Shown here one piece after another: positions 29,901-42,854 of a stretch of 42,854 nt of DNA (positions within the stretch are counted from its first letter, which is position 1; the number at the start of each line of letters is the position of its first letter). The stretch is from Leptolyngbyaceae cyanobacterium T60_A2020_046 (GTDB lineage Bacteria > Cyanobacteriota > Cyanobacteriia > Phormidesmidales > Phormidesmidaceae): positions 1 through 42,854 of the forward strand of contig JACYME010000196.1 in assembly GCA_015272155.1 (NCBI GenBank), written 5' to 3'. The position numbers and the translations under genes were made by a program. The notes below the pieces were generated by a model, which had not been told where the DNA came from, did no database searches, and worked only from the letters and a program-made list of their open reading frames with translations.

Positions 29901-30605
29901 ATGATGCCTCGAATCCTTGTGATTGATGACGACCCCTCAATTGCGGAACTCGTCTCGGTAAACCTAGAAATGGCGGGCTATGATGTCAGTCAGGCTAGTG
30001 ACGGCATTAGAGGGCAAGCTTTGGCTGTTCAGCTTTTGCCTGACCTGATTATGTTGGATCTGATGCTGCCAAAGGTAGATGGTTTGACGGTGTGCCAGCG
30101 CCTTCGTCGTGATAGCCGGACGGCAGAGATCCCGGTACTTATGTTGACAGCCTTGGGCCAGACTCAAGACAAAGTGGATGGTTTTAATGCAGGAGCTGAT
30201 GACTATCTTACAAAACCCTTTGAGTTAGAAGAAATGCTGGCTCGAGTGCGGGCGTTGTTGCGCCGTACCGATCGCATTCCCCAGGCAGCTAAGCACAGCG
30301 AAATTTTGAACTATGGGCCGCTGACGTTGATTCCTGAGCGGTTTGAGGCCGTATGGTTTGACCAGACTGTAAAGCTAACTCATCTAGAGTTTGAGCTGTT
30401 GCATTGTCTGTTGCAGCGGCATGGACAGACGGTTTCGCCCAGCGAAATCTTGAAGGAAGTGTGGGGCTATGATCCCAATGATGATATTGAGACGATTCGG
30501 GTGCATGTGCGTCATTTGCGCACGAAGCTAGAGCCCGATCCACGTCACCCGAAGTACATCAAGACGGTGTATGGGGCGGGCTATTGTTTAGAGCTGCCGA
30601 CCTAG
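29901..30605 (+). CDS. rpaA: Response regulator RpaA, circadian output regulator
   Basis: OmpR-family master regulator that, phosphorylated by SasA (and dephosphorylated through CikA), drives circadian gene expression in cyanobacteria. The 234-residue sequence agrees closely with RpaA as I remember it, including [60 protein letters not shown] and the end [14 protein letters not shown]. The phospho-acceptor is Asp53, if counted from the first of two tandem ATGs (29901); the second start at 29904 is equally possible. Neither has a Shine-Dalgarno. It is convergent with the GGDEF-EAL gene (30635-32977), 29 bp apart. Confidence 0.9.
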
Positions 30606-30634: not shown

Positions 30635-32977
30635 TTATCCTTCAGCGGGCGATCGCAACTGGCTCGTGAGCAAATGCTCAACTTCTACGACCTCTAACGG
30701 GGGGTAAAACCAGTAGCCTTGCCCGAAGAGGCAGCCGCTTTTTAACAGGAATTCTGCCTGCTGCCCGGTTTCAATGCCTTCCCCGACAATATTTAAGCCG
30801 AGATTGCCGCCGAGAGCGATGATGGTTTTAATCACTTCCTGGTTGTCTGGGGTGGTTTCTAAGTTTGAGACGAAGGATTTGTCGATTTTTAAGATGTCTT
30901 TGGGAAACCGCAGCAGGTAGCTCAGGGAGCAGTATCCAGTCCCAAAGTCATCTAAGGCAACTTGAATCTGGCGCGATCGCAGTTGTTGTAGCGTAACGAG
31001 GGCTGTCTCCTCCGTCTCGATGAGGGCGCTTTCTGTAATTTCAACCCGTAGGTGTTGGCTGATCATTCCTGTTGAGGAGATCGCGTGATCAATTTGATCA
31101 ACGAGGTCGGGCTGGGCCAACTGCTTCGCCGATAGGTTCACACTCATCCGCATTGACTTGATCTCTGGCCAGTGGGCGAGCCAAGTTTGCCACTGGCGGC
31201 AGGCTTCGTGGAGCACCCACTGGCCAATCGGGACAATTAACCCGGTTTGTTCGGCAACGGGAATAAAGTGGGCGGGCGAGAGGAGCCCATGATTAGGATC
31301 CTGCCAGCGGATTAGGGCTTCAAACCCACAAATATGCTGGGTTGGCAGGTGAATAATGGGCTGATAGGTGAGGCGAAATTCCTGGCGATCGAGGGCGCGG
31401 CGCAGATCGTTCTCAAGCTGGAGGCGGCGCTTGACCTGGGTGTGCATCGATCCGTCAAAGACCTGGTACTGGCCGCGACCTTTGCTTTTGGCTTGATACA
31501 TAGCGGTGTCGGCATCGCGTAAAAATTGGGCGGCATCGCTATAACTTTGGGCATTGAGCACGATGCCGATGCATGCACTGGCAAAAAGTTCTTGGGTGTC
31601 GAGGGTGATGGGGCGTCTCAGAGTGAGTTGAATGCGTTCGACGATTTCGGTAACGTCGTCAATGCCCTCAATTTCCTCTAAGAGGATGGCAAATTCGTCG
31701 CCACTGGTGCGGGCGAGGGTATCGCCGACACGCAGGCAACGGTTGAGGCGATCGGCGACGACGCGCAGCAAGAAATCGCCTGCATCATGCCCCAGGCTGT
31801 CGTTCACGATCCGAAAGTCGTCGAGATCGAGGAAGAGGACGGCAAATTCTCGACCGGAGGCGCTGCCGTCGAGGTCTTGGTGACGGTGGGCAATTTGAAT
31901 GGCATGGTTGAGGCGATCAAGAAAGAGGGCGCGGTTGGGGAGCCCAGTGAGGGAATCGTGAAAGGCGTCGTGGCGGAGTTGTTCTTCGATGCGGTGGCGT
32001 TGCTGGAGTTCTTTTTGGGCTTGTTCGTAGAGTTGAGATTGGTAGATGGCGATCGCGCATTGATCGGCAACGGCTTTGACCAGCGATCGTTCAGCTTGGC
32101 TCCAGTCACGGGGTCGGAAGGCTTGATAAAGGGTCAAAACGCCAAAATAATGCTGCTGATAGCAGACGGGAGTAATCAGACCCGATTGAATCTGATGAGC
32201 CTCAAAAAATGTGGCTAAATCAGGATCTAAATCGGTGTGGGGAGGCTGCAAAATGAGCTGATGACCGGCCCGGAGGTCAGCATGGTGTTTTTGGCACAGG
32301 CTGCACTCGACATTGTAAAAACACTGGCGGTTGACAGCGCGATCGCTCACATAGCGCACCACCATGCGCTGATCAGCCTCTGGCCGCACCATCAGGCAAT
32401 AGCTCACCTCCAGCACATCATGGAGCTGATTTACCGTCGTTTGCAGCACCTCCTCCAAAACCAGCGTTTCACGCATTGCATGAACAATGCGATTTAGAAT
32501 CGACTCGCGCCATGCCTGCTGTTCGATCTGAGAAATCGCGGCCTGCTTTTGTGCTCGCAAGTCCGCCTCATTCAGCGCCCGTTGGAGCACCGTGGGCAGC
32601 CGATAGAGGCGATCTTTCAAGACGTAATCCGTCATCCCGGCCCGAATACACTCCACCGCAGCCTCTTCGCCTAAGCTGCCAGTGACGAGAATGAAGGGGG
32701 TATTGGGCTGGAGGTTTTGCACGATAGACAACACCTGGGGCGCATGGAGTCCAGGCAAGCGATAGTCGGCAAGAACCGCGCTGAAGCGCTCACTTCGCAG
32801 TTTTGTTTCACATCCCTTGAGATCTGCCGCAGTCTCGTAGGCAAAGACCAGCCCCGATGATTCCAGCGCCAGCAAAATGAGCTCGATATCCTCGGGCACA
32901 TCTTCCACAATCAGTAGGTTGAGCGGCGGTGAAGTCTCTTCAGCGTCGGAAAGTCCGCTGTGCATAGCATCTGGCAT
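30635..32977 (-). CDS. REC-GAF-GGDEF-EAL cyclic-di-GMP signalling protein
   Basis: A 780-residue soluble response regulator with both c-di-GMP synthase and phosphodiesterase domains. The N-terminal receiver (about 18-135) has Asp71 in VLADYRLPG. A GAF domain follows (about 160-320) with a CSLCQKHH segment at 225-232. The GGDEF domain (about 338-510) reads SGDEF at 425-429, a functional variant, preceded by an I-site RVGD at 416-419. The EAL domain (about 520-775) retains EAL at 553-555, the Asn of SVNLS (614), EITES (646-650), DDFGTG (676-681), Lys697, EGIET (733 on) and Gln753, so phosphodiesterase activity is expected. It is the third gene after the giant kinase and the Rcp1-like receiver, 76 bp behind the latter, and is probably controlled by them. 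Confidence 0.92.
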   Translation of the reverse strand: MPDAMHSGLSDAEETSPPLNLLIVEDVPEDIELILLALESSGLVFAYETAADLKGCETKLRSERFSAVLADYRLPGLHAPQVLSIVQNLQPNTPFILVTGSLGEEAAVECIRAGMTDYVLKDRLYRLPTVLQRALNEADLRAQKQAAISQIEQQAWRESILNRIVHAMRETLVLEEVLQTTVNQLHDVLEVSYCLMVRPEADQRMVVRYVSDRAVNRQCFYNVECSLCQKHHADLRAGHQLILQPPHTDLDPDLATFFEAHQIQSGLITPVCYQQHYFGVLTLYQAFRPRDWSQAERSLVKAVADQCAIAIYQSQLYEQAQKELQQRHRIEEQLRHDAFHDSLTGLPNRALFLDRLNHAIQIAHRHQDLDGSASGREFAVLFLDLDDFRIVNDSLGHDAGDFLLRVVADRLNRCLRVGDTLARTSGDEFAILLEEIEGIDDVTEIVERIQLTLRRPITLDTQELFASACIGIVLNAQSYSDAAQFLRDADTAMYQAKSKGRGQYQVFDGSMHTQVKRRLQLENDLRRALDRQEFRLTYQPIIHLPTQHICGFEALIRWQDPNHGLLSPAHFIPVAEQTGLIVPIGQWVLHEACRQWQTWLAHWPEIKSMRMSVNLSAKQLAQPDLVDQIDHAISSTGMISQHLRVEITESALIETEETALVTLQQLRSRQIQVALDDFGTGYCSLSYLLRFPKDILKIDKSFVSNLETTPDNQEVIKTIIALGGNLGLNIVGEGIETGQQAEFLLKSGCLFGQGYWFYPPLEVVEVEHLLTSQLRSPAEG

Positions 32978-33053
32978 TGTCTTACGTCCGTCGGAGGCTG
33001 CGTACTGACTTTGTCTAGCCTTGCGCTAGACCAGACCCCTAAAATCGCCGATA

Positions 33054-33500
33054 TCAAGCCCCCAAATAACCTAGGGGATGGTTGACATTCATCCAGTAAG
33101 CCCCGACTTGTTGAGCAAGTTCACGAAATTGTTGAAATTCCAGGGCTTTGACAACATAGCTGTTAACACCCAGATTGTAACAAGCTCTTAGGTCCTGCTC
33201 TTCAGCGGAGGAGGTCATGATGACAACGGGTAGAAATCGGGTTCTGGGATGACTGCGAATCGCTTGCAGAACTTCGATCCCGTTCTTTTTGGGGAGTTTG
33301 AGATCCATTAAGACAAGGCGAGGAAGATCGCGGGTCGGTGGGCTCAGATCGTTACCACAAAGGTATTGAATCGCTTGTTCTCCATCGGAGACAACATCGA
33401 AAACACGGATGAAATTCAGCTCTTGAATCGCGAGTTGAATTAACTCAACATCGTTGGGATCATCTTCTACGAGCAATAATTTTTGGGGATCAACAACCAT
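33054..33500 (-). CDS. Rcp1-like single-domain response regulator
   Basis: A 148-residue receiver-only protein of the type paired with phytochrome-like kinases (Rcp1). The ATG at 33500 (MVVDPQKLLLVEDDPNDVEL) is chosen over one 8 codons upstream. It has acidic pair VEDD, phospho-acceptor Asp66 in LVLMDLKLPKKNGIEVL, and TSSAEEQDLRACYNLGVNSY. The conserved Lys is followed by Ala (VVKALEF) where receivers normally have Lys-Pro, a small departure. Without an output domain it should relay phosphate or dock to a partner. It lies 267 bp after the giant kinase and 76 bp before the GGDEF-EAL gene, on one strand. Confidence 0.9.
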   Translation of the reverse strand: MVVDPQKLLLVEDDPNDVELIQLAIQELNFIRVFDVVSDGEQAIQYLCGNDLSPPTRDLPRLVLMDLKLPKKNGIEVLQAIRSHPRTRFLPVVIMTSSAEEQDLRACYNLGVNSYVVKALEFQQFRELAQQVGAYWMNVNHPLGYLGA

Positions 33501-33767
33501 GCTTGGACACTTCCAGGAACACACGTTTCGTCAAAAACTGTATGGTGCTCGTCGTTGCTTTGGCGTCACGAATGACACGCAATCCCCTGATAAACCTTGT
33601 GTGAACGCAGCTTGATGCTGTCTTTGATGAACTGAATTTATTTGATGCATGGGGATCGATGACGGGATGGTGAGTCTCTGTACGATCGCATCCAACACCT
33701 GTGATTAGTATGCCCGCCAAATGGACAAAACGGTATACAGCCGTGAGGCTAAGGCTCGGAGCCGATT

Positions 33768-36700
33768 TTAGCCGAGGGTAAAGAAAAAGGTCGTGCCCTG
33801 ATTGATCTGACTCTCGACCCAGATAGTCCCGTGATGGCGATGAATGATGCGTTGGACGATCGCGAGGCCGATCCCGGTGCCTTCAAACTGCTCGGCGGTG
33901 TGCAGCCGTTGAAAGGGCGTAAACAGCTTGTCTGCATAGCTCATGTCAAATCCGACACCATTGTCTTGTACGTAGAAAACCTGGGTTTTGGGGTCATACC
34001 CGATGGTGATTTCGGCGGGGGTGCGATCGCGGCTGAACTTGACTGCGTTCTGAATTAAGTTCATGAAGACCTGTTGAAGCAAGGCCGCATCGCCCTGGAC
34101 GGTCGGTAAATCTGACAGGGTGAGTCGCATCGTGTTGGAGTCGTCGGACAGTTCCAGCATCTCGATCACGGTGTTGACCAAGGCTGAAAGCGCAACCGGA
34201 CGCAGGATGAGATCTCGCCGCCCAACGCGGGAAAGCGTGAGCAATCCGTCAATGAGCAGCCCCATCTTTTCGCTGCTGTGGGCGATGACATGGATGTAAT
34301 GGCTAATCTTGGGATCGCTGAGGGTGGCGGGGCTCAGTCGTTGTTGGAGGGCGGTGATAAACCCATTGATGTGGCGCAGGGGCGCACGCAGATCGTGGGA
34401 AACGGAGTAAGCAAAGGACTCCAATTCTTGGTTGGTGGCTGCGAGTTGTCGAGTTTGTTGTTCGAGGGCTTGGCGGGTGTGGACTAGCTCAGTAATGTCT
34501 CGGGATGAGCCGATGATGGCGTAGACCGAGCCATCGGGGCGTTTGAGCGGAATTTTGTAGGTGTCGAGGTGAATGAGCCCCAAGGGCGTTTCGATCGCCT
34601 CTTCCATATGGAGTACCTCGCCCGTTGCGAAAACCTGCTGGTTTTGAGCGTCGTAGTAGGCGGCTTGCTCGGGGGGAAAGCACTCAAATACGCTCTTGTT
34701 TTGGAAGGCTTGGCGGTTGGCTCGTTGGGTAAAGCTGGCAAACACGTCATTGCCAAAGGTCAACTGGTTGGTGGCGCGATCGATGACAAAAATCTGATCG
34801 GGCAGGGCATTCATGAAGGTGAGAAGTTCTGAGGTGCGCTGTTCGACGAGATCTTCAAGGTGCTGATTTTGTTGTTCTAACTCGTGATTAAGGCGACGGA
34901 TTTCGTGCTCGGCTTGTTTGCGCTCGCTGATGTCGCGAATAAGTAGGAGCACTTCATTCTCTGACATGGGGACGATGCGACCCTCTTCCCACCGGGTGGT
35001 GCCGTGGACGGTGATCTGGTATTCGTAAAGCTGGGTGTGTTGGGTGGCGATCGCTCGTTCTACCAATGCCATCCGCTCGTGGACAATCTCTGGCGGCAGC
35101 ATGTCTCGAATGTTGCGTCCAACGGCCTCTGCCTCAGGCACCACAACGGGATATTCGCTGGGGTGTTTGACTGAGAGACAGTCGCCATCGCGGTTCATGC
35201 GAATCACCATGTCGGGCAGGGCTTCTACGATCGCGCGGTTCACGGCTTCACTGTGTCGGAGGGCGCGCTCGGTGGCTTTGCGCTCGGTAATGTCGATGAC
35301 GAGGCCGTCCCAAATCAAGCTGCCGTCGGCCTGGGGTGCGGGCCGAGAAATGGCCTGGCACCATTTTTCGAGGCCCGCTGGGGTGATGATGCGATGCTCG
35401 TAGGAAATGGGGGTCATTTGTGCGGCGGCTTGGGCGATCGCGATTTGAAAGTTGGGGACATCTTCGGGGTGCACCAGACGCCAGAGGTGATTGGTGTCTT
35501 GGTAAATGGCTTCGGCTTCTAGGCCCCAGAGATCGCGGGCGGCGGCGCTGACGTAGCTAAAGCGATCGCGGCCATCGGGATAGGTGTGATAGCGGTAGAT
35601 GACGCCGGGCATATTGTCGGCAAGCCGCTGAAAGCGCGCTTCACTGTCGCGGAGTGCCTGATGCGATCGCTGGCGTTCGAGTTCGGCAGCGGCCCGAGCG
35701 GCAAAGATTTTCAAAATGGCGATGGCATTCTGCACATCGCGCAGGGGTTCGCGATGGATGACGCAAATCTCGCCAATGGGTGTGCCCTGGGCATTAGTGA
35801 GGGCAATGCCGATGTAGCTTTCTGCCTTGAGTGCAACGAGGTCGCGATCGCACGGAAATGCTTCCTGCACGGCCTGGGTACAGAGATAGAACCCATCCCG
35901 GAGCACGTATTCACAGGGCGTGTTTGGGATGGGGTATTGATAGGTGGGTTGGAGTGTGCCCTGGCTCCAGAAGGCGAGGGTCGTGAGATGGTCGTCACAG
36001 AGTTGGTTGATAAGCACCGTTTCGCCTTCGAGGGAGGTTGCCAGGTGTTTGGCGAGGGCGGCGAAGAAATCGGTGCCTGTGACGGCGGCAGTGCCAATCA
36101 CGATATTGCGCAGGGCTGATTCTGCTAAGACGCGATCGGTGATGTCGTTGTAGACCGAGCTGAGGAAAATGGGTTGTCCTTGACTGTCGCAGACCGCCGT
36201 GGTAATGGACTGAACATAACGAATGCTGCCATCCCGACAGATGAAGCGCTTTTCGATTAGGTGGGTGGGGGCCGTGCCGTTGACGACTTCGAGGGTGAGG
36301 CGGCTGTCGTTTTCTAGGTCGTCGGGGTGGGTGAATTCGGCATAGTGACGACCGAGCAGTTCGTGGGCTGGATACCCCAGCAACGTGCAAAATGCAGGAT
36401 TAATGCGCAAATAGCTGCCTGCTAAAGAAAGCTGAGCCATGCTCACGGCAGATTGCTCAAAGATGGCCTGAAATTCTCGCTCGCTGAGCTGCTGGGCCGC
36501 ATGGGCGCGGGCGCGATCGCTGACATTGCGACAGTTGACGACAATGCCTCGGACAACGGGATCATGGAGCAGGCTGGTCGCGATCGCCTCAAAATATCGC
36601 CAGCTTCCATCCTGATGACGCACTCGATAATGAACAATGGGCAGACTCACCCCAGGATTCGCCGCTGCTTGCTGAATCGTGTCAATAATCATGTCTACAT

Positions 36701-39700
36701 CTTCAGGAGCGACGAAATCGGTGGCGGGTTGACCGATCAGCTGAGCGGGTTGGTAACCCAAAACCCGTTGGGCTGAGGGCGTCACGTACTGAAAGCAACC
36801 CTGGTGATCGAGCAGCACCACAATATCAGGGGTTTGCTCTGTCAACGCTTGGAAGTAGTTTTGCTGCTGTCGCAGGGCTTCATCGACCTGATGACGACGA
36901 TAGGCATTGGCAAATAGGTTGCCGACGAGCTGCAACAGTGCGACTTCATCCTGGCTCCAGAGTTGGGTGTGGGTATGGGTCGCAAAGCCTAAAAAGCCTT
37001 GCAATACCTGACTGTGAAACATCGGCACCAGCACCGCTGATTGAATGCGAAGGTGATCAAGAGCGGCTCGCTCGTTGAGGGCTTCGGCGGGCAGGTCGTC
37101 GGGGGTGGTAAGCAGAATGGTGTGCCGCTGGTTGAGCTCTGATATCAGCCAGGAAAAGCTTTGCTGGGGAAGGTGGCATAGCTCGGGGGGCAAGGGCTCA
37201 AGGGTGGGGAGATGCCATTGGCTGTAGAGTGTGACAGCGTTCTGATCGGCGTCGAGCAAGAAGACGTAGCTGCGTTCTGCCCCAGCGGCTTCGGTGATGT
37301 CGCGCAGGGCGTGATGGATGCCTGTGGTCAGTGCTTCGCTGGGCAAGTCCACAAACTGGGTTGAGAGTTGCCCGAGGAGGTGCTCGAACTGAAGGCGGTG
37401 GTAAAGCTTGGCTTCAATGCGCTTGCGATCGCGAGTATCCCGAATAATGGTCGAAAAAGACACCACTTCGCCACCGTCACCAAAGTGTGCTGCGATGGTT
37501 TGAGAAACTGGAATTTCTTCTCCGGCATGATCCAAGATGGCCAGCTCGCCTTGCCAGCTTCCTTCTGCGATCGCGGTCGGCAAGGCCTCTTCATACAGCC
37601 GCTGAATCGCCCAAGCGGGATGAAACTGGTCAATGTGTTCCCCTTCATAGGTCTCGGAAGTCGCGCCGACCAGCTTACGAAAGGCCGAGTTCAAGTAGGT
37701 AACCTGGCCATCCGCAGTGGCCATCCCAACCGCGTCAGGGGTGGACTCTAGGATGGCCTGTAGATTTTGCTGACAGAGTTCAGCCTGTCTCAGTTCTGTC
37801 AGATCTCGGATGCTGGTGACGATGCCTGTGATGGTGCCATTGTCTTCAACGTAGGGGGTCAGGGTAACGCTGTGATAGCACTGGCCCAGGTGAGGAAACG
37901 TAAACCAATCGGCATAGCGCAGCGTTTCGCCAGCGAGGCAGCGATCGAGCAATGGTTTCAGCCGAGTCGCAAAGGCGTCTTGCCCCAGCACTTCGGCAAC
38001 GGTGTGCCCGAGGATGGGCTGCCCACTGTAGCCATACCAATGGGCATAGGTGGGGTTAATGATTTGGTAGCGATAGTCGCGATCGAGGAGGCAAATGCCA
38101 TCGGTGGCAACTTCGACCATGCGGACGTAGCGCTGGAGGGCGGCTTTGGCGTGGCGCTGTTCGCTGATGTCTTCGTAGGTGCAAAAGACGCCAATAATTT
38201 CCCCAGTGCTGGATTTTAGGGGCAGTTTGGTGGCCCGTACCCAGAGATCAGTTCCGTTGCGGTGGCGTTGGAGTTGTTCGCGACAGATGCGGGGCTGACT
38301 GCCGTTCAAAATGGCGCGATCGTCATCCTGATATTGGGTAATGGCGTCTGGTACGACTTCGGGTAAATCCCCATCTCCCTTGCCAATCAAGTCCGCAGGG
38401 CTACTCAGCCCCATGTCCTGGGCAAATTGGCGGTTGCCGCCGATAAAATGCCCCTGCTGATCTTTCCAGAAGACGCGCTGGGGCATGGTGTCGAACACCA
38501 GTTGTAAAAGCTGTTGGGATGATCGCAGCGCTTCTTCAACCTGCTTGCAATCGGTGATGTCGGTATGGGAGCCGACCATGCGGACGGGGGTACCCGTTTC
38601 GTCTAAGATGACTCGCCCCCGGGTCAAGAACCATCGATACTGGCCGTCTTTGGCCCGTATTCGATGTTCTGCCGAAAAGATATCGGTGTGTCCGGCGAGG
38701 TGGGCCTGTACCTTGGCCATGACTTTGGGCAGGTCTTCGGGGTGAACCTGTGATTCCCAAGTGCGCCATTGGTTGGGGATCTCGTCGTCGGTGTAGCCCA
38801 ACATGGTCTTCCATCGTGGGGAGAAGAAGACCTCATGGGTCTGAATTTTCCAGTCCCAAATGCCGTCGTTGCTCCCGAGGATGGCAAGCTGCCAGCGTTC
38901 TTCACTTTCTTTGAGGGCGGTAATGGCTTGGGTGCGATCGCTCACATCTTGTACCTGTGATAGCCCAGACAGCAGGGTGCCGTGGGCATCGACGAGGGCA
39001 GAGTTATACCATTCGCAGGCGCGGGCTGTGCCGTTTTGGGTCAAGGTGTTGATCTGCAAAATCTGCCGTTGGGTTGCGCCGTGTCCTACGGTGGTGAGCC
39101 AAGTTTGAAAGCGATCGCGATCGGCATCGGTGAAGAGTGGGCAGTCGGTTAGGCGCTGGCCCAGCATGGTGTCGGCGGGCCAGCCAAAGAGGGCCGCAGC
39201 GCGTGTAGACCAGCGAGTAATGCGCAAGTCATGATCCCACTCAATCACGGCGAGGGGCGAGTTTTCGATATGGAGCTGGAGGCGATCGGTCGTGGCTTTG
39301 AGGTGTTGGCGGGTGCGTTCCAATGCAGTGAGGTCGCGAATGCTGACGATCGCCCCGGTGAGCGTGCCGTCTTCTTCCCAATAGGGGGTGTAGGTAATGC
39401 TGACAAATTCATGCTGGGGGCTTGAGATCCAGAGTTCTTGCTGAATGTGTTCGCCGGTGGTGATGCAGCGGTGCAGCGCGGGTTGAACGTGGGTGGTAAA
39501 GGTTTGGGGATCGAGAAAGTCCCTCAGCGATCGTCCAAACCAATGCTGAACTTCGCTCCAAGCTTGACAGGCTTGGTTCATGAGCCGACAAAGGCCATCG
39601 CCATCAATGATGCAGATCCGGTCGGTGGTGACAGAAAAAATTCGCTCATAGCGGCGCATCACCAGTTCAGCTTGCTTTCGGGCGGTGATGTCGGTCGTGA

Positions 39701-40895
39701 CGCCAACGACAATCGGTGAGGCAATGCCATTCTTGCGAAGGGCGCTGCCGCGATCATGCACCCATCGCACGGCTCCGTCGGGATAGCAGATGCGGTATTC
39801 TTCGTTGAAATCTGCGTTGCTGTGTTGCCCTGCGTGGAGTGCCGCGGCGACGCGATCGCGATCGTCGGAGTGGATATGTGCCAAAAATGCCGTGGGGTTG
39901 CCATAGGCTTCTTCGCGGGTCATCGGCCACACCGTTTCAAAGGCGGGGCTGAGGTAAAGGTCGCGCTGGGCTTGGGCATCGTACACCCAGAGCACGTCGT
40001 CAATGTTTTGGACGAGGTACTGAAACTGGGCTTCGGATTCACGCAGGGCAAGCTCGGTTTGTTTCCGTTGGGTAATGTCGGTGGTGATGCCGATGCAGTA
40101 GCGCAATTGGCCGTCTGGATCAAAAACAGGGAAGCCGCGATCGCGAATCCATCGCATTTCCGCACCGGAGCCTAGAATCTGATACTCCTCGTCAAAGGGG
40201 GCAGGTTCGGTAATCAGGCGGCGGTGACGTTCACAGAACCGAGCCTCATCCTCTGGAACCAGTCGCTTGATGAGGGCGCTGATACCTTCTTGATAAAGGC
40301 GATCACTAGAAATTCCCCAAATTCGTTCAATCGCTGGACTCACGTAGAGGGGCTCGCCAGTGGTGCCATCCACGATCCAAAAGACATCGTCAATGGTTTC
40401 GGCAATGAGGCGAAATCGGGATTCAGAGAAATTTTGAGCCACTTCGTCAGTCTCGCGATCGCGAATTTCCTGTTGAAGCTGCTGGTTGGTTTGGGTGATG
40501 GCAGCGGCGCGATCGCGATAGTGTTCAAGCTCCTGATGCATCTGATGCACCTGGGTCATGTCGGTGAGCACTGCGATTCCGTAGCCGTCAGTGTGGTCTT
40601 GAGGCTGCACCCAGCGCGCTGAGATCTGCATTGCGATCGCACTGCCGTTCCTCTTCCAAACGTAGATGGGTAGGTCTTGGACGACCTTGCTGGTTACCCC
40701 TGTTTGCCAAACGTTTGCGGCGACATGCTGCGAGTCCGGGGTGAGAAATTGGAGCCACGATCGCCCCATGACTTCATCTCGACGATAGCCCAGAGCTGCA
40801 AGCCAGCAATCGCTTACGGCGATCACCTGTCCGGCAGCATCGACAACATGGATCAGGGCCGGGGTTTGCTCAAACAGCGTGCGATCGCACATCAT
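33768..40895 (-). CDS. Giant soluble multi-PAS/GAF sensor histidine kinase
   Basis: A 2375-residue cytosolic kinase without membrane segments. I count 14 PAS modules ending in D-[IV/L]-[TS]-x-R-K-type linkers: about 1-115, 155-280, 285-410, 413-530, 535-660, 660-790, 790-915, 920-1040, 1040-1160, 1341-1465, 1469-1590, 1747-1880, 1883-2000 and 2022-2150. GAF domains fall at about 1165-1330 and 1596-1745. A coiled coil (HELEQQNQHLEDLVEQR) precedes the last PAS. HisKA has His2167 in SVSHDLRAPLRHI. The ATPase has MNLIQNAVKFS, YVQDNGVGFDM, LFTPFQRLH and GTGIGLAIV, all intact. The SHDLRAPL type is that of phytochrome-related kinases that use Rcp1-like receivers, fitting the next gene. PAS ligands are unknown. 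Confidence 0.93.
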   Translation of the reverse strand: MMCDRTLFEQTPALIHVVDAAGQVIAVSDCWLAALGYRRDEVMGRSWLQFLTPDSQHVAANVWQTGVTSKVVQDLPIYVWKRNGSAIAMQISARWVQPQDHTDGYGIAVLTDMTQVHQMHQELEHYRDRAAAITQTNQQLQQEIRDRETDEVAQNFSESRFRLIAETIDDVFWIVDGTTGEPLYVSPAIERIWGISSDRLYQEGISALIKRLVPEDEARFCERHRRLITEPAPFDEEYQILGSGAEMRWIRDRGFPVFDPDGQLRYCIGITTDITQRKQTELALRESEAQFQYLVQNIDDVLWVYDAQAQRDLYLSPAFETVWPMTREEAYGNPTAFLAHIHSDDRDRVAAALHAGQHSNADFNEEYRICYPDGAVRWVHDRGSALRKNGIASPIVVGVTTDITARKQAELVMRRYERIFSVTTDRICIIDGDGLCRLMNQACQAWSEVQHWFGRSLRDFLDPQTFTTHVQPALHRCITTGEHIQQELWISSPQHEFVSITYTPYWEEDGTLTGAIVSIRDLTALERTRQHLKATTDRLQLHIENSPLAVIEWDHDLRITRWSTRAAALFGWPADTMLGQRLTDCPLFTDADRDRFQTWLTTVGHGATQRQILQINTLTQNGTARACEWYNSALVDAHGTLLSGLSQVQDVSDRTQAITALKESEERWQLAILGSNDGIWDWKIQTHEVFFSPRWKTMLGYTDDEIPNQWRTWESQVHPEDLPKVMAKVQAHLAGHTDIFSAEHRIRAKDGQYRWFLTRGRVILDETGTPVRMVGSHTDITDCKQVEEALRSSQQLLQLVFDTMPQRVFWKDQQGHFIGGNRQFAQDMGLSSPADLIGKGDGDLPEVVPDAITQYQDDDRAILNGSQPRICREQLQRHRNGTDLWVRATKLPLKSSTGEIIGVFCTYEDISEQRHAKAALQRYVRMVEVATDGICLLDRDYRYQIINPTYAHWYGYSGQPILGHTVAEVLGQDAFATRLKPLLDRCLAGETLRYADWFTFPHLGQCYHSVTLTPYVEDNGTITGIVTSIRDLTELRQAELCQQNLQAILESTPDAVGMATADGQVTYLNSAFRKLVGATSETYEGEHIDQFHPAWAIQRLYEEALPTAIAEGSWQGELAILDHAGEEIPVSQTIAAHFGDGGEVVSFSTIIRDTRDRKRIEAKLYHRLQFEHLLGQLSTQFVDLPSEALTTGIHHALRDITEAAGAERSYVFLLDADQNAVTLYSQWHLPTLEPLPPELCHLPQQSFSWLISELNQRHTILLTTPDDLPAEALNERAALDHLRIQSAVLVPMFHSQVLQGFLGFATHTHTQLWSQDEVALLQLVGNLFANAYRRHQVDEALRQQQNYFQALTEQTPDIVVLLDHQGCFQYVTPSAQRVLGYQPAQLIGQPATDFVAPEDVDMIIDTIQQAAANPGVSLPIVHYRVRHQDGSWRYFEAIATSLLHDPVVRGIVVNCRNVSDRARAHAAQQLSEREFQAIFEQSAVSMAQLSLAGSYLRINPAFCTLLGYPAHELLGRHYAEFTHPDDLENDSRLTLEVVNGTAPTHLIEKRFICRDGSIRYVQSITTAVCDSQGQPIFLSSVYNDITDRVLAESALRNIVIGTAAVTGTDFFAALAKHLATSLEGETVLINQLCDDHLTTLAFWSQGTLQPTYQYPIPNTPCEYVLRDGFYLCTQAVQEAFPCDRDLVALKAESYIGIALTNAQGTPIGEICVIHREPLRDVQNAIAILKIFAARAAAELERQRSHQALRDSEARFQRLADNMPGVIYRYHTYPDGRDRFSYVSAAARDLWGLEAEAIYQDTNHLWRLVHPEDVPNFQIAIAQAAAQMTPISYEHRIITPAGLEKWCQAISRPAPQADGSLIWDGLVIDITERKATERALRHSEAVNRAIVEALPDMVIRMNRDGDCLSVKHPSEYPVVVPEAEAVGRNIRDMLPPEIVHERMALVERAIATQHTQLYEYQITVHGTTRWEEGRIVPMSENEVLLLIRDISERKQAEHEIRRLNHELEQQNQHLEDLVEQRTSELLTFMNALPDQIFVIDRATNQLTFGNDVFASFTQRANRQAFQNKSVFECFPPEQAAYYDAQNQQVFATGEVLHMEEAIETPLGLIHLDTYKIPLKRPDGSVYAIIGSSRDITELVHTRQALEQQTRQLAATNQELESFAYSVSHDLRAPLRHINGFITALQQRLSPATLSDPKISHYIHVIAHSSEKMGLLIDGLLTLSRVGRRDLILRPVALSALVNTVIEMLELSDDSNTMRLTLSDLPTVQGDAALLQQVFMNLIQNAVKFSRDRTPAEITIGYDPKTQVFYVQDNGVGFDMSYADKLFTPFQRLHTAEQFEGTGIGLAIVQRIIHRHHGTIWVESQINQGTTFFFTLG

Positions 40896-41504: not shown

Positions 41505-42854
41505 CTAGGGCGAAATCTCACGCATGTAACGTCCCCACAGGGCGGCGGCTTGTCCACTGCTGGCACTGGTTGGGGTGTTGTCATCATTGCCTAACCAGAC
41601 TCCCGTCACCAGGTTCCTGCGCGGGATATAGCCCACAAACCAGAGATCTCGGTTATCGTTGGTGGTTCCAGTTTTGCCCGCTTCTCCAAGGCCAAGGGCG
41701 GCGGCTCGGCCGGTACCGCTTTGGACGACGCCTTGCAAAAGTCCGGTCATTTGCTGGGCGATCGCAGGAGGCAGGGCTTGGCGATTGGTATCCCCAGTCT
41801 GACCAAATTCATAGATGACGCGGCAACTATTGGCGTCGTTGGGGTCAGTACAGTCGCTACTGTCTAATACTCGTCGAATGCCGTGGGGCGGGTTCCAAAC
41901 CCCGTCATTTGCGATCGCGGCAAATGCCCCCGTCAATTCCAGTGGTGTGACTTCACTATCGCCGAGCACGAGCCCTGGTGATAGCCTCAGATCAGACATG
42001 ATACCTAGGCGACGAGCCGTGCGTACCATTGCCTCTAGTCCAACTTCCTGGGCAATCCGCAAGGCCACCACGTTGTCAGATCGGGCCATTCCGGTGTACA
42101 TATCAACGACCCCGCCGCCGCCACGGCAGCCGTCAAACTGTTGGCCATCCCAGACCAGCGTTTCGCAACTAAACCCTTGCCCGGGTGACATCCCCGCTTC
42201 CAGAGCGGCAGCAAAAGCAAACACTTTAAATGTCGAACCTGGCTGACGCAGAGCCTGGGTGGCTCGATTAAACTGGCTGACTTCATAGTCAAACCCACCC
42301 ACAAGGGCGCGAATTTCACTTTGCTGACTATCTAGGGTAACGATCGCCCCTTGAGAGTATCCCAAAGCTTGTCCGTTGCTTGTCACGTCTTCGCGCAGCG
42401 CTCGCTCCGCCGCTGCCTGGGCAGATAGGTCAAGGGTAGACTCCACAATGAAATTCCCTTCCCGAGCAAGCTGAGTGCCTAAAACCGCTTCCAACTCGTC
42501 AAAGATATAGCCGTAAAAATAGGGTGCACGGATACTCTGAAGCTCTGCCCGTGCCTTAGGACTAATTTCAATCCGCGAGCGTCGGGCGCGCCGGGCCTCT
42601 TCTGCACTCACGATGCCTAAGGCTGCCATCCGATCTAGCACGCGATCGCGGTAAGCCACCGCCGCCTCATAATTCTGCACAGGATTAAATGCATTCGGCG
42701 CAGGCAAAATGCCCACTAAGGTTGCCGCTTCTGACAACGTCAACGCCGCCGCAGGTTTATCAAAATAGAACCGCGCTGCATCCTCAAACCCGTAAAGGTT
42801 GCCCCCCAAGTACACCCGGTTCAGATAAAACAGCAGCAAGGCATCTTTGCTGTA
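41505..42854 (-). CDS. Class A penicillin-binding protein (5' end outside window)
   Basis: Bifunctional peptidoglycan transglycosylase/transpeptidase, C-terminal 449 residues; the gene continues past the right edge, so the membrane anchor and most of the transglycosylase domain are missing. The first visible residues (YSKDALLLFYLNRVYLGGNL) are the end of the transglycosylase, with LNRVYLGG and ATLVGILPAPNAFNP. The transpeptidase shows SxxK as PGSTFK (near 42235), SxN as SDN in ARSDNVVAL (near 42075) and KTG as GKTGTT (near 41672). An extra Cys-bearing insert (SDCTDPNDANSCRVIYEF) lies before KTG and may form a disulfide. The short tail ends REISP. It acts at the outer face of the cytoplasmic membrane. 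Confidence 0.93.
   Translation of the reverse strand, partial: YSKDALLLFYLNRVYLGGNLYGFEDAARFYFDKPAAALTLSEAATLVGILPAPNAFNPVQNYEAAVAYRDRVLDRMAALGIVSAEEARRARRSRIEISPKARAELQSIRAPYFYGYIFDELEAVLGTQLAREGNFIVESTLDLSAQAAAERALREDVTSNGQALGYSQGAIVTLDSQQSEIRALVGGFDYEVSQFNRATQALRQPGSTFKVFAFAAALEAGMSPGQGFSCETLVWDGQQFDGCRGGGGVVDMYTGMARSDNVVALRIAQEVGLEAMVRTARRLGIMSDLRLSPGLVLGDSEVTPLELTGAFAAIANDGVWNPPHGIRRVLDSSDCTDPNDANSCRVIYEFGQTGDTNRQALPPAIAQQMTGLLQGVVQSGTGRAAALGLGEAGKTGTTNDNRDLWFVGYIPRRNLVTGVWLGNDDNTPTSASSGQAAALWGRYMREISP

Follow-up and report, generated by a model that had tools for sequence, protein, structure and literature searches.

Gene content of the locus

The subject of this study is a group of three consecutive signalling genes in Leptolyngbyaceae cyanobacterium T60_A2020_046 (assembly GCA_015272155.1). 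The window, i.e. the whole stretch of DNA that was analysed, comprises positions 1-42,854 of contig JACYME010000196.1 (42,854 nucleotides), and the trio lies within positions 30635-40895. On the minus strand, the gene of a giant histidine kinase is followed by that of a small single-domain receiver (REC) protein and by that of a predicted enzyme of cyclic dimeric guanosine monophosphate (c-di-GMP) turnover with REC, GAF, GGDEF and EAL domains. The trio is a real, conserved and inherited signalling module; its parts are of known kinds, and the unit itself appears to be undescribed. Re-reading of the window bore out the gene positions and the spacing of 267 bp and 76 bp that an initial annotation of the sequence had given. 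The features are as follows (protein domains by Pfam):

33768-40895, minus strand: giant kinase, 2375 amino acids (aa), PAS/GAF array followed by HisKA and HATPase_c
33501-33767, minus strand: gap between kinase and receiver genes, 267 bp
33054-33500, minus strand: single-domain Rcp1-like receiver, 148 aa counted from ATG
32978-33053, minus strand: gap between receiver and enzyme genes, 76 bp, holding a hairpin at 33013-33031
30635-32977, minus strand: REC-GAF-GGDEF-EAL response regulator, 780 aa

The kinase carries about 14 PAS and two GAF-like domains (PAS count read from the sequence, with 12 TIGR00229 stretches and 13 PAS_4 stretches), followed by the catalytic core of a two-component kinase, namely a HisKA domain with a phospho-accepting histidine and a HATPase_c domain. 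The SHDLRAPL box begins at residue 2166, which places the phospho-accepting histidine at His2167. A Pfam scan of the kinase found no receiver, HPt or PHY domain, and a phytochrome sensor module is lacking. A transmembrane sensor was considered and rejected, the best 19-residue hydropathy being 1.66; by hydropathy, the kinase is predicted to be soluble. The relation to phytochrome kinases that had been read from the SHDLRAPL box holds in part: the box is present and the core is near bacteriophytochrome kinases (117.8 bits), but among solved chains 8f71, named only "Histidine kinase", is nearer (144 bits), and the sensor is of another kind.

The phospho-acceptor of the small receiver is Asp66, and its C-terminal extension is conserved. 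Translation could also begin at a GTG at 33524, but the alignment of orthologues starts at the ATG. Its classification as Rcp1-type stands at the level of the subfamily, with matches to RcpB (79.5 bits), RcpA (78.3 bits) and Rcp1 (73.8 bits) over residues 5-139, although certain other solved single-domain receivers score higher. Among 52 collected receivers, 51 carry Lys-Pro where the window alone has Lys118-Ala119. In two other genomes the small receiver is tandemly doubled upstream of the enzyme gene (G064, L074 7858-8388 and 8787-9299; G213, L258 3805-4242 and 5143-5583), resembling one far-red photoacclimation (FaRLiP) cluster with two rfpC-like genes.

In the enzyme, the phosphorylation site of the REC domain is complete (E25, D26, D71, T99, K121), and all five residues are invariant in 40 of 40 homologues. 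The REC-GAF part aligns with PPHK (PDB 6OAP) over 300 residues; in this alignment the GAF domain lacks the bilin-binding Cys-His, PPHK having ECHV at that position. A role of the REC-GAF protein as photosensor was rejected for this reason. The initial annotation had described both output domains as intact. This is correct for the EAL domain, which keeps all eight catalytic and metal-binding residues (E553, N614, E646, D676, D677, K697, E733, Q753; set complete in 39 of the 40 homologues), but not for the cyclase signature, which reads S-G-D-E-F (residues 425-429) and so departs from the canonical GG(D/E)EF. An RxxD I-site is present as RVGD. Across the homologues the signature is GGDEF in 31, SGDEF in eight (the window and seven members of its family) and SGGEF in one. 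Some enzymes with SGDEF are active, and the same signature is inactive in another context (PMC3974145, PMC9683572): SGDEF was active in ECA3270, and the serine inactivated VCA0965 (PMC3974145). Because the EAL residues are complete while SGDEF may be active or inactive by context, the phosphodiesterase half appears the safer prediction of activity. A profile search of the genome contigs with the GGDEF-EAL alignment returned generic GGDEF-EAL proteins only.

A scan of both gaps for sigma70 promoters and terminators found neither in the 267-bp gap nor in the 76-bp gap an intrinsic-terminator-like or sigma70-like site, promoter-like sites being rarer than in shuffled sequences, and a scan of this type says little about cyanobacterial promoters. 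The 76-bp gap holds a perfect 7-bp hairpin (GTCTAGC-GCAAG-GCTAGAC), which was rejected as a repeat or terminator, given its single copy in the genome and the absence of a T-run. The trio is flanked by a penicillin-binding protein gene (41505-42839, minus strand) upstream of the kinase and by an OmpR-type regulator (29901-30605, plus strand) that converges on the enzyme gene with a gap of 29 bp.

Conservation of the trio and exchange of its output

Conserved gene order, which the initial annotation had proposed to look for, was read in regions fetched around orthologues. The contiguous order kinase, receiver, enzyme is found in 17 other genomes (G084, G111, G133 and 14 more, L254-L267), making 18 genomes in five cyanobacterial families (f1, f2, f23, f24, f26) with the window included, and in every contiguous trio the small receiver sits between kinase and enzyme genes. 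Because it recurs in 17 other genomes, this order is far beyond chance. The sequences of the kinase cores form one clade with 100/99 support, outside of which the other sampled Rcp1-associated kinases fall.

The genes remain together in genomes even where they are not neighbors. In genus g2 and in G008, a genome of the window's family, the receiver adjoins the enzyme, whereas the kinase orthologue is found at a distance of about 120 kb or on a different contig; these unlinked kinases are likewise giant (1840-2743 aa where complete). The genomes G001, G007, G008, G014, G022, G027 and G032 keep the kinase (1452-2743 aa) on another contig or far away. Of 20 enzyme-bearing genomes in a first sample of 143, 18 also hold the kinase clade, as do 36 of 40 in a sample of 388 genomes that shares genomes with the first. 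Fisher tests of co-occurrence gave 1.9e-16 and 7.6e-30 by genome for the two samples and 8e-9 by genus, p values that are only indicative, as the tests ignore shared ancestry. The proposal of a single functional unit is thus supported by the order kept in five families and by the joint occurrence of kinase and enzyme, also in genomes where their genes are unlinked.

The kinase lies downstream of a penicillin-binding protein gene in G007, G008 and G013 as well as in the window, and in G007 and G008 this is so although kinase and enzyme genes are not linked there. G137 carries the kinase gene in inverted orientation between the other two (L077 652-4662).

Kinase-clade members lacking a GGDEF-EAL orthologue were also inspected. 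At least 11 genomes have, behind the same kinase and receiver, a REC-GAF protein that ends in a histidine kinase instead of GGDEF-EAL, with a REC-GAF part 39-49% identical to that of the window over about 310 residues. What stays constant beside the kinase is therefore the REC-GAF front end, whereas the output domain varies. In five genomes with the REC-GAF-HK version (HK, histidine kinase; G140, G192, G262, G292, G331), a copy of the OmpR-type regulator (90-91% identical) is found 1.0-1.4 kb downstream in convergent orientation, a sign that both versions may share an old chromosomal location.

The small receiver is missing from some of these arrangements. In seven genomes the kinase adjoins the REC-GAF protein with no small receiver between them, the output being GGDEF-EAL in G013 and G021 (one genus), G217, G308 and G358, and a kinase in G086 and G225. 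In the near-complete genome G007 (three contigs), kinase and enzyme are kept and no receiver match above 47% identity was found.

A probable branched two-component module

Based on this dataset, we consider it probable that the trio is a branched two-component module, in which one kinase would serve two parallel aspartate receivers. Branched transfer is the simplest reading because the locus has no HPt domain, the genome has only two (in unrelated proteins), and the receiver is absent from some adjacent pairs of kinase and REC-GAF protein. The phosphotransfer routes, the direction of change in c-di-GMP, the signals and co-transcription are what we infer here. A cytoplasmic kinase would integrate several internal signals via its PAS and GAF-like domains and autophosphorylate at His2167. 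Phosphate would then pass directly and in parallel to Asp66 of the small receiver and to Asp71 of the enzyme, where phosphorylation of the REC domain, together with whatever the GAF domain senses, may set the turnover of c-di-GMP. Phosphodiesterase activity is the most likely conserved output; in the lineage of the window, the GGDEF half may act as a weaker cyclase or as a regulator that binds GTP or c-di-GMP. The small receiver would form an accessory branch, either as phosphate sink or competitor or as a second output by protein-protein contact. The initial annotation had offered competitor and shuttle side by side, of which the competitor is likely.

Several observations weigh against this interpretation. 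The 267-bp gap could contain its own promoter, of a kind other than those scanned for, and Lys-Ala in place of Lys-Pro may alter signalling by the receiver of the window. Four of the 388 genomes (G065, G182, G200, G340; three of them fragmented drafts) hold the enzyme but no member of the kinase clade, and the same is true of G016 in the first sample; in G182, G206, G224 and G324 the enzyme adjoins neither kinase nor receiver. The enzymes of G200 and G340 are on short contigs. G065 looks degraded, as its receiver frame is broken and the end of its EAL domain damaged, but the frame of G016 is full-length, and decay of the enzyme after loss of the kinase does not hold as a general rule.

An enzyme without its kinase, as in G182, or far from it, as in G206, G224 and G324, would be expected if kinase and Rcp1-like receiver were a complete two-component system by themselves and the enzyme a mere neighbor under a different kinase. 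Rcp1-like receivers are classically encoded beside their kinase, as in Cph1-Rcp1, and they adjoin it in most of 40 other loci that were read. Yet genomes tend to hold kinase and enzyme together even without linkage, and the five receiver-less GGDEF-EAL cases are still adjacent, so that we regard a neighbor-only enzyme as unlikely. We rate somewhat lower still the phosphorelay that the initial annotation had put forward, in which phosphate would travel from the kinase to the small receiver, from there to a histidine (on an HPt domain elsewhere, or back through the kinase) and finally to the REC domain of the enzyme, as proposed for RfpA-RfpC-RfpB. The middle position of the receiver gene in all contiguous trios would suit such a route. 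A strict His-Asp-His-Asp relay is not supported, given the absence of an HPt domain from all three proteins (Pfam scan) and of a receiver fused to the kinase, and the only two HPt domains of the genome lie on other contigs within unrelated open frames of 1905 aa and 518 aa. Were the receiver an obligatory carrier, loci without it should be non-functional; the seven pairs that lack it and the retention of kinase and enzyme in G007 argue indirectly against a required shuttle. Finally, with about 60 REC domains in this genome and the clustering of signalling genes in cyanobacteria, some such neighborhoods may carry no functional meaning; for this trio we find that very improbable, given three orthologous families in the same order across five cyanobacterial families and a single supported kinase clade.

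Beyond the branched module as such, a wider generalization seems to us evenly balanced between acceptance and doubt: that this is a conserved, unnamed cyanobacterial unit, with a single PAS-array kinase acting on a pair of receivers, and that the output domain behind the REC-GAF part is interchangeable (GGDEF-EAL or histidine kinase), the locus lying in some genomes next to the same OmpR-type gene. While input and transfer interface stayed fixed, evolution would then have traded a second messenger for a kinase cascade. For most two-component genes of cyanobacteria no partner has been assigned; here a kinase stays together, in gene order and co-occurrence, with its two likely receivers and an output that acts on c-di-GMP. 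Close relatives that differ in output or have lost the receiver form a natural series, in which the role of the Rcp1-like receiver can be tested directly.

Comparison with known systems

The statement that this combination has not been described as a system agrees with our search of the open literature, which found no description of the trio (subscription papers being mostly outside its reach). However, the wider layout is common, and for thermophilic cyanobacteria a tally of two-component gene triads exists, which did not extend to their function (PMC9953108). In most of the 40 other Rcp1-like receiver loci, a kinase lies directly upstream and a REC protein downstream, often with overlaps of 4 nt; this REC protein mostly has a kinase as its output, but in six loci it ends in GGDEF-EAL (L217, L220, L222, L227, L233, L249). 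The order of histidine kinase, Rcp1-like response regulator and REC-output protein is common in cyanobacteria, and the trio of the window is one lineage of a widespread design.

RcaE-RcaF-RcaC is likewise a cyanobacterial trio of kinase, single receiver and larger receiver protein, with a photoreceptor as sensor and a DNA-binding output. The same set of parts is found in RfpA-RfpC-RfpB of far-red photoacclimation (PMC4658448). There, however, the sensor is a photoreceptor, the output binds DNA and RfpC is a proposed shuttle, whereas the trio of the window is predicted to act in c-di-GMP turnover and its receiver is missing from the locus in some genomes. Parallel transfer has a counterpart in Caulobacter, where PleC and DivJ phosphorylate both the single-domain receiver DivK and PleD, a REC-containing c-di-GMP enzyme. 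These proteins belong to other families with another genome layout, and PleD is a cyclase without EAL.

In Leptospira, LvrA transfers phosphate directly to the neighboring REC-controlled enzyme LvrB in a branched pathway (PMC5863495, PMC13269768). The REC domain of LvrB resembles that of the enzyme (66.6 bits), and the LvrA core resembles the kinase core of the window (214.7 bits). The output of LvrB is a kinase and the extra receiver is fused to LvrA, which places this pair closer to the REC-GAF-HK version of the locus than to that of the window. PPHK of Leptolyngbya sp. JSC-1 (PMC11480761) shares the aligned REC-GAF front end; it differs in having a bilin-binding GAF domain and a kinase output, where the protein described here has a GAF without Cys-His and a GGDEF-EAL output. 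As in Cph1-Rcp1 (PDB 1I3C), an Rcp1-like receiver stands beside a kinase with a phytochrome-type core, but the trio lacks the phytochrome sensor and adds a third gene with c-di-GMP output.

In Anabaena sp. PCC 7120, the genes of CdgK and CdgS are transcribed together, and the pair determines c-di-GMP level and cell size (PMC9927289). CdgK contains two receivers and an HPt domain for an internal phosphorelay, whereas the locus of the window has no HPt; CdgS is described as a diguanylate cyclase, and no separate Rcp1-like receiver is reported for the pair, whereas the enzyme of the window has GAF and EAL domains. The likeness lies in the arrangement that we propose for the trio as well, namely a very large cyanobacterial kinase that adjoins and controls a REC-containing c-di-GMP enzyme (PMC9927289).
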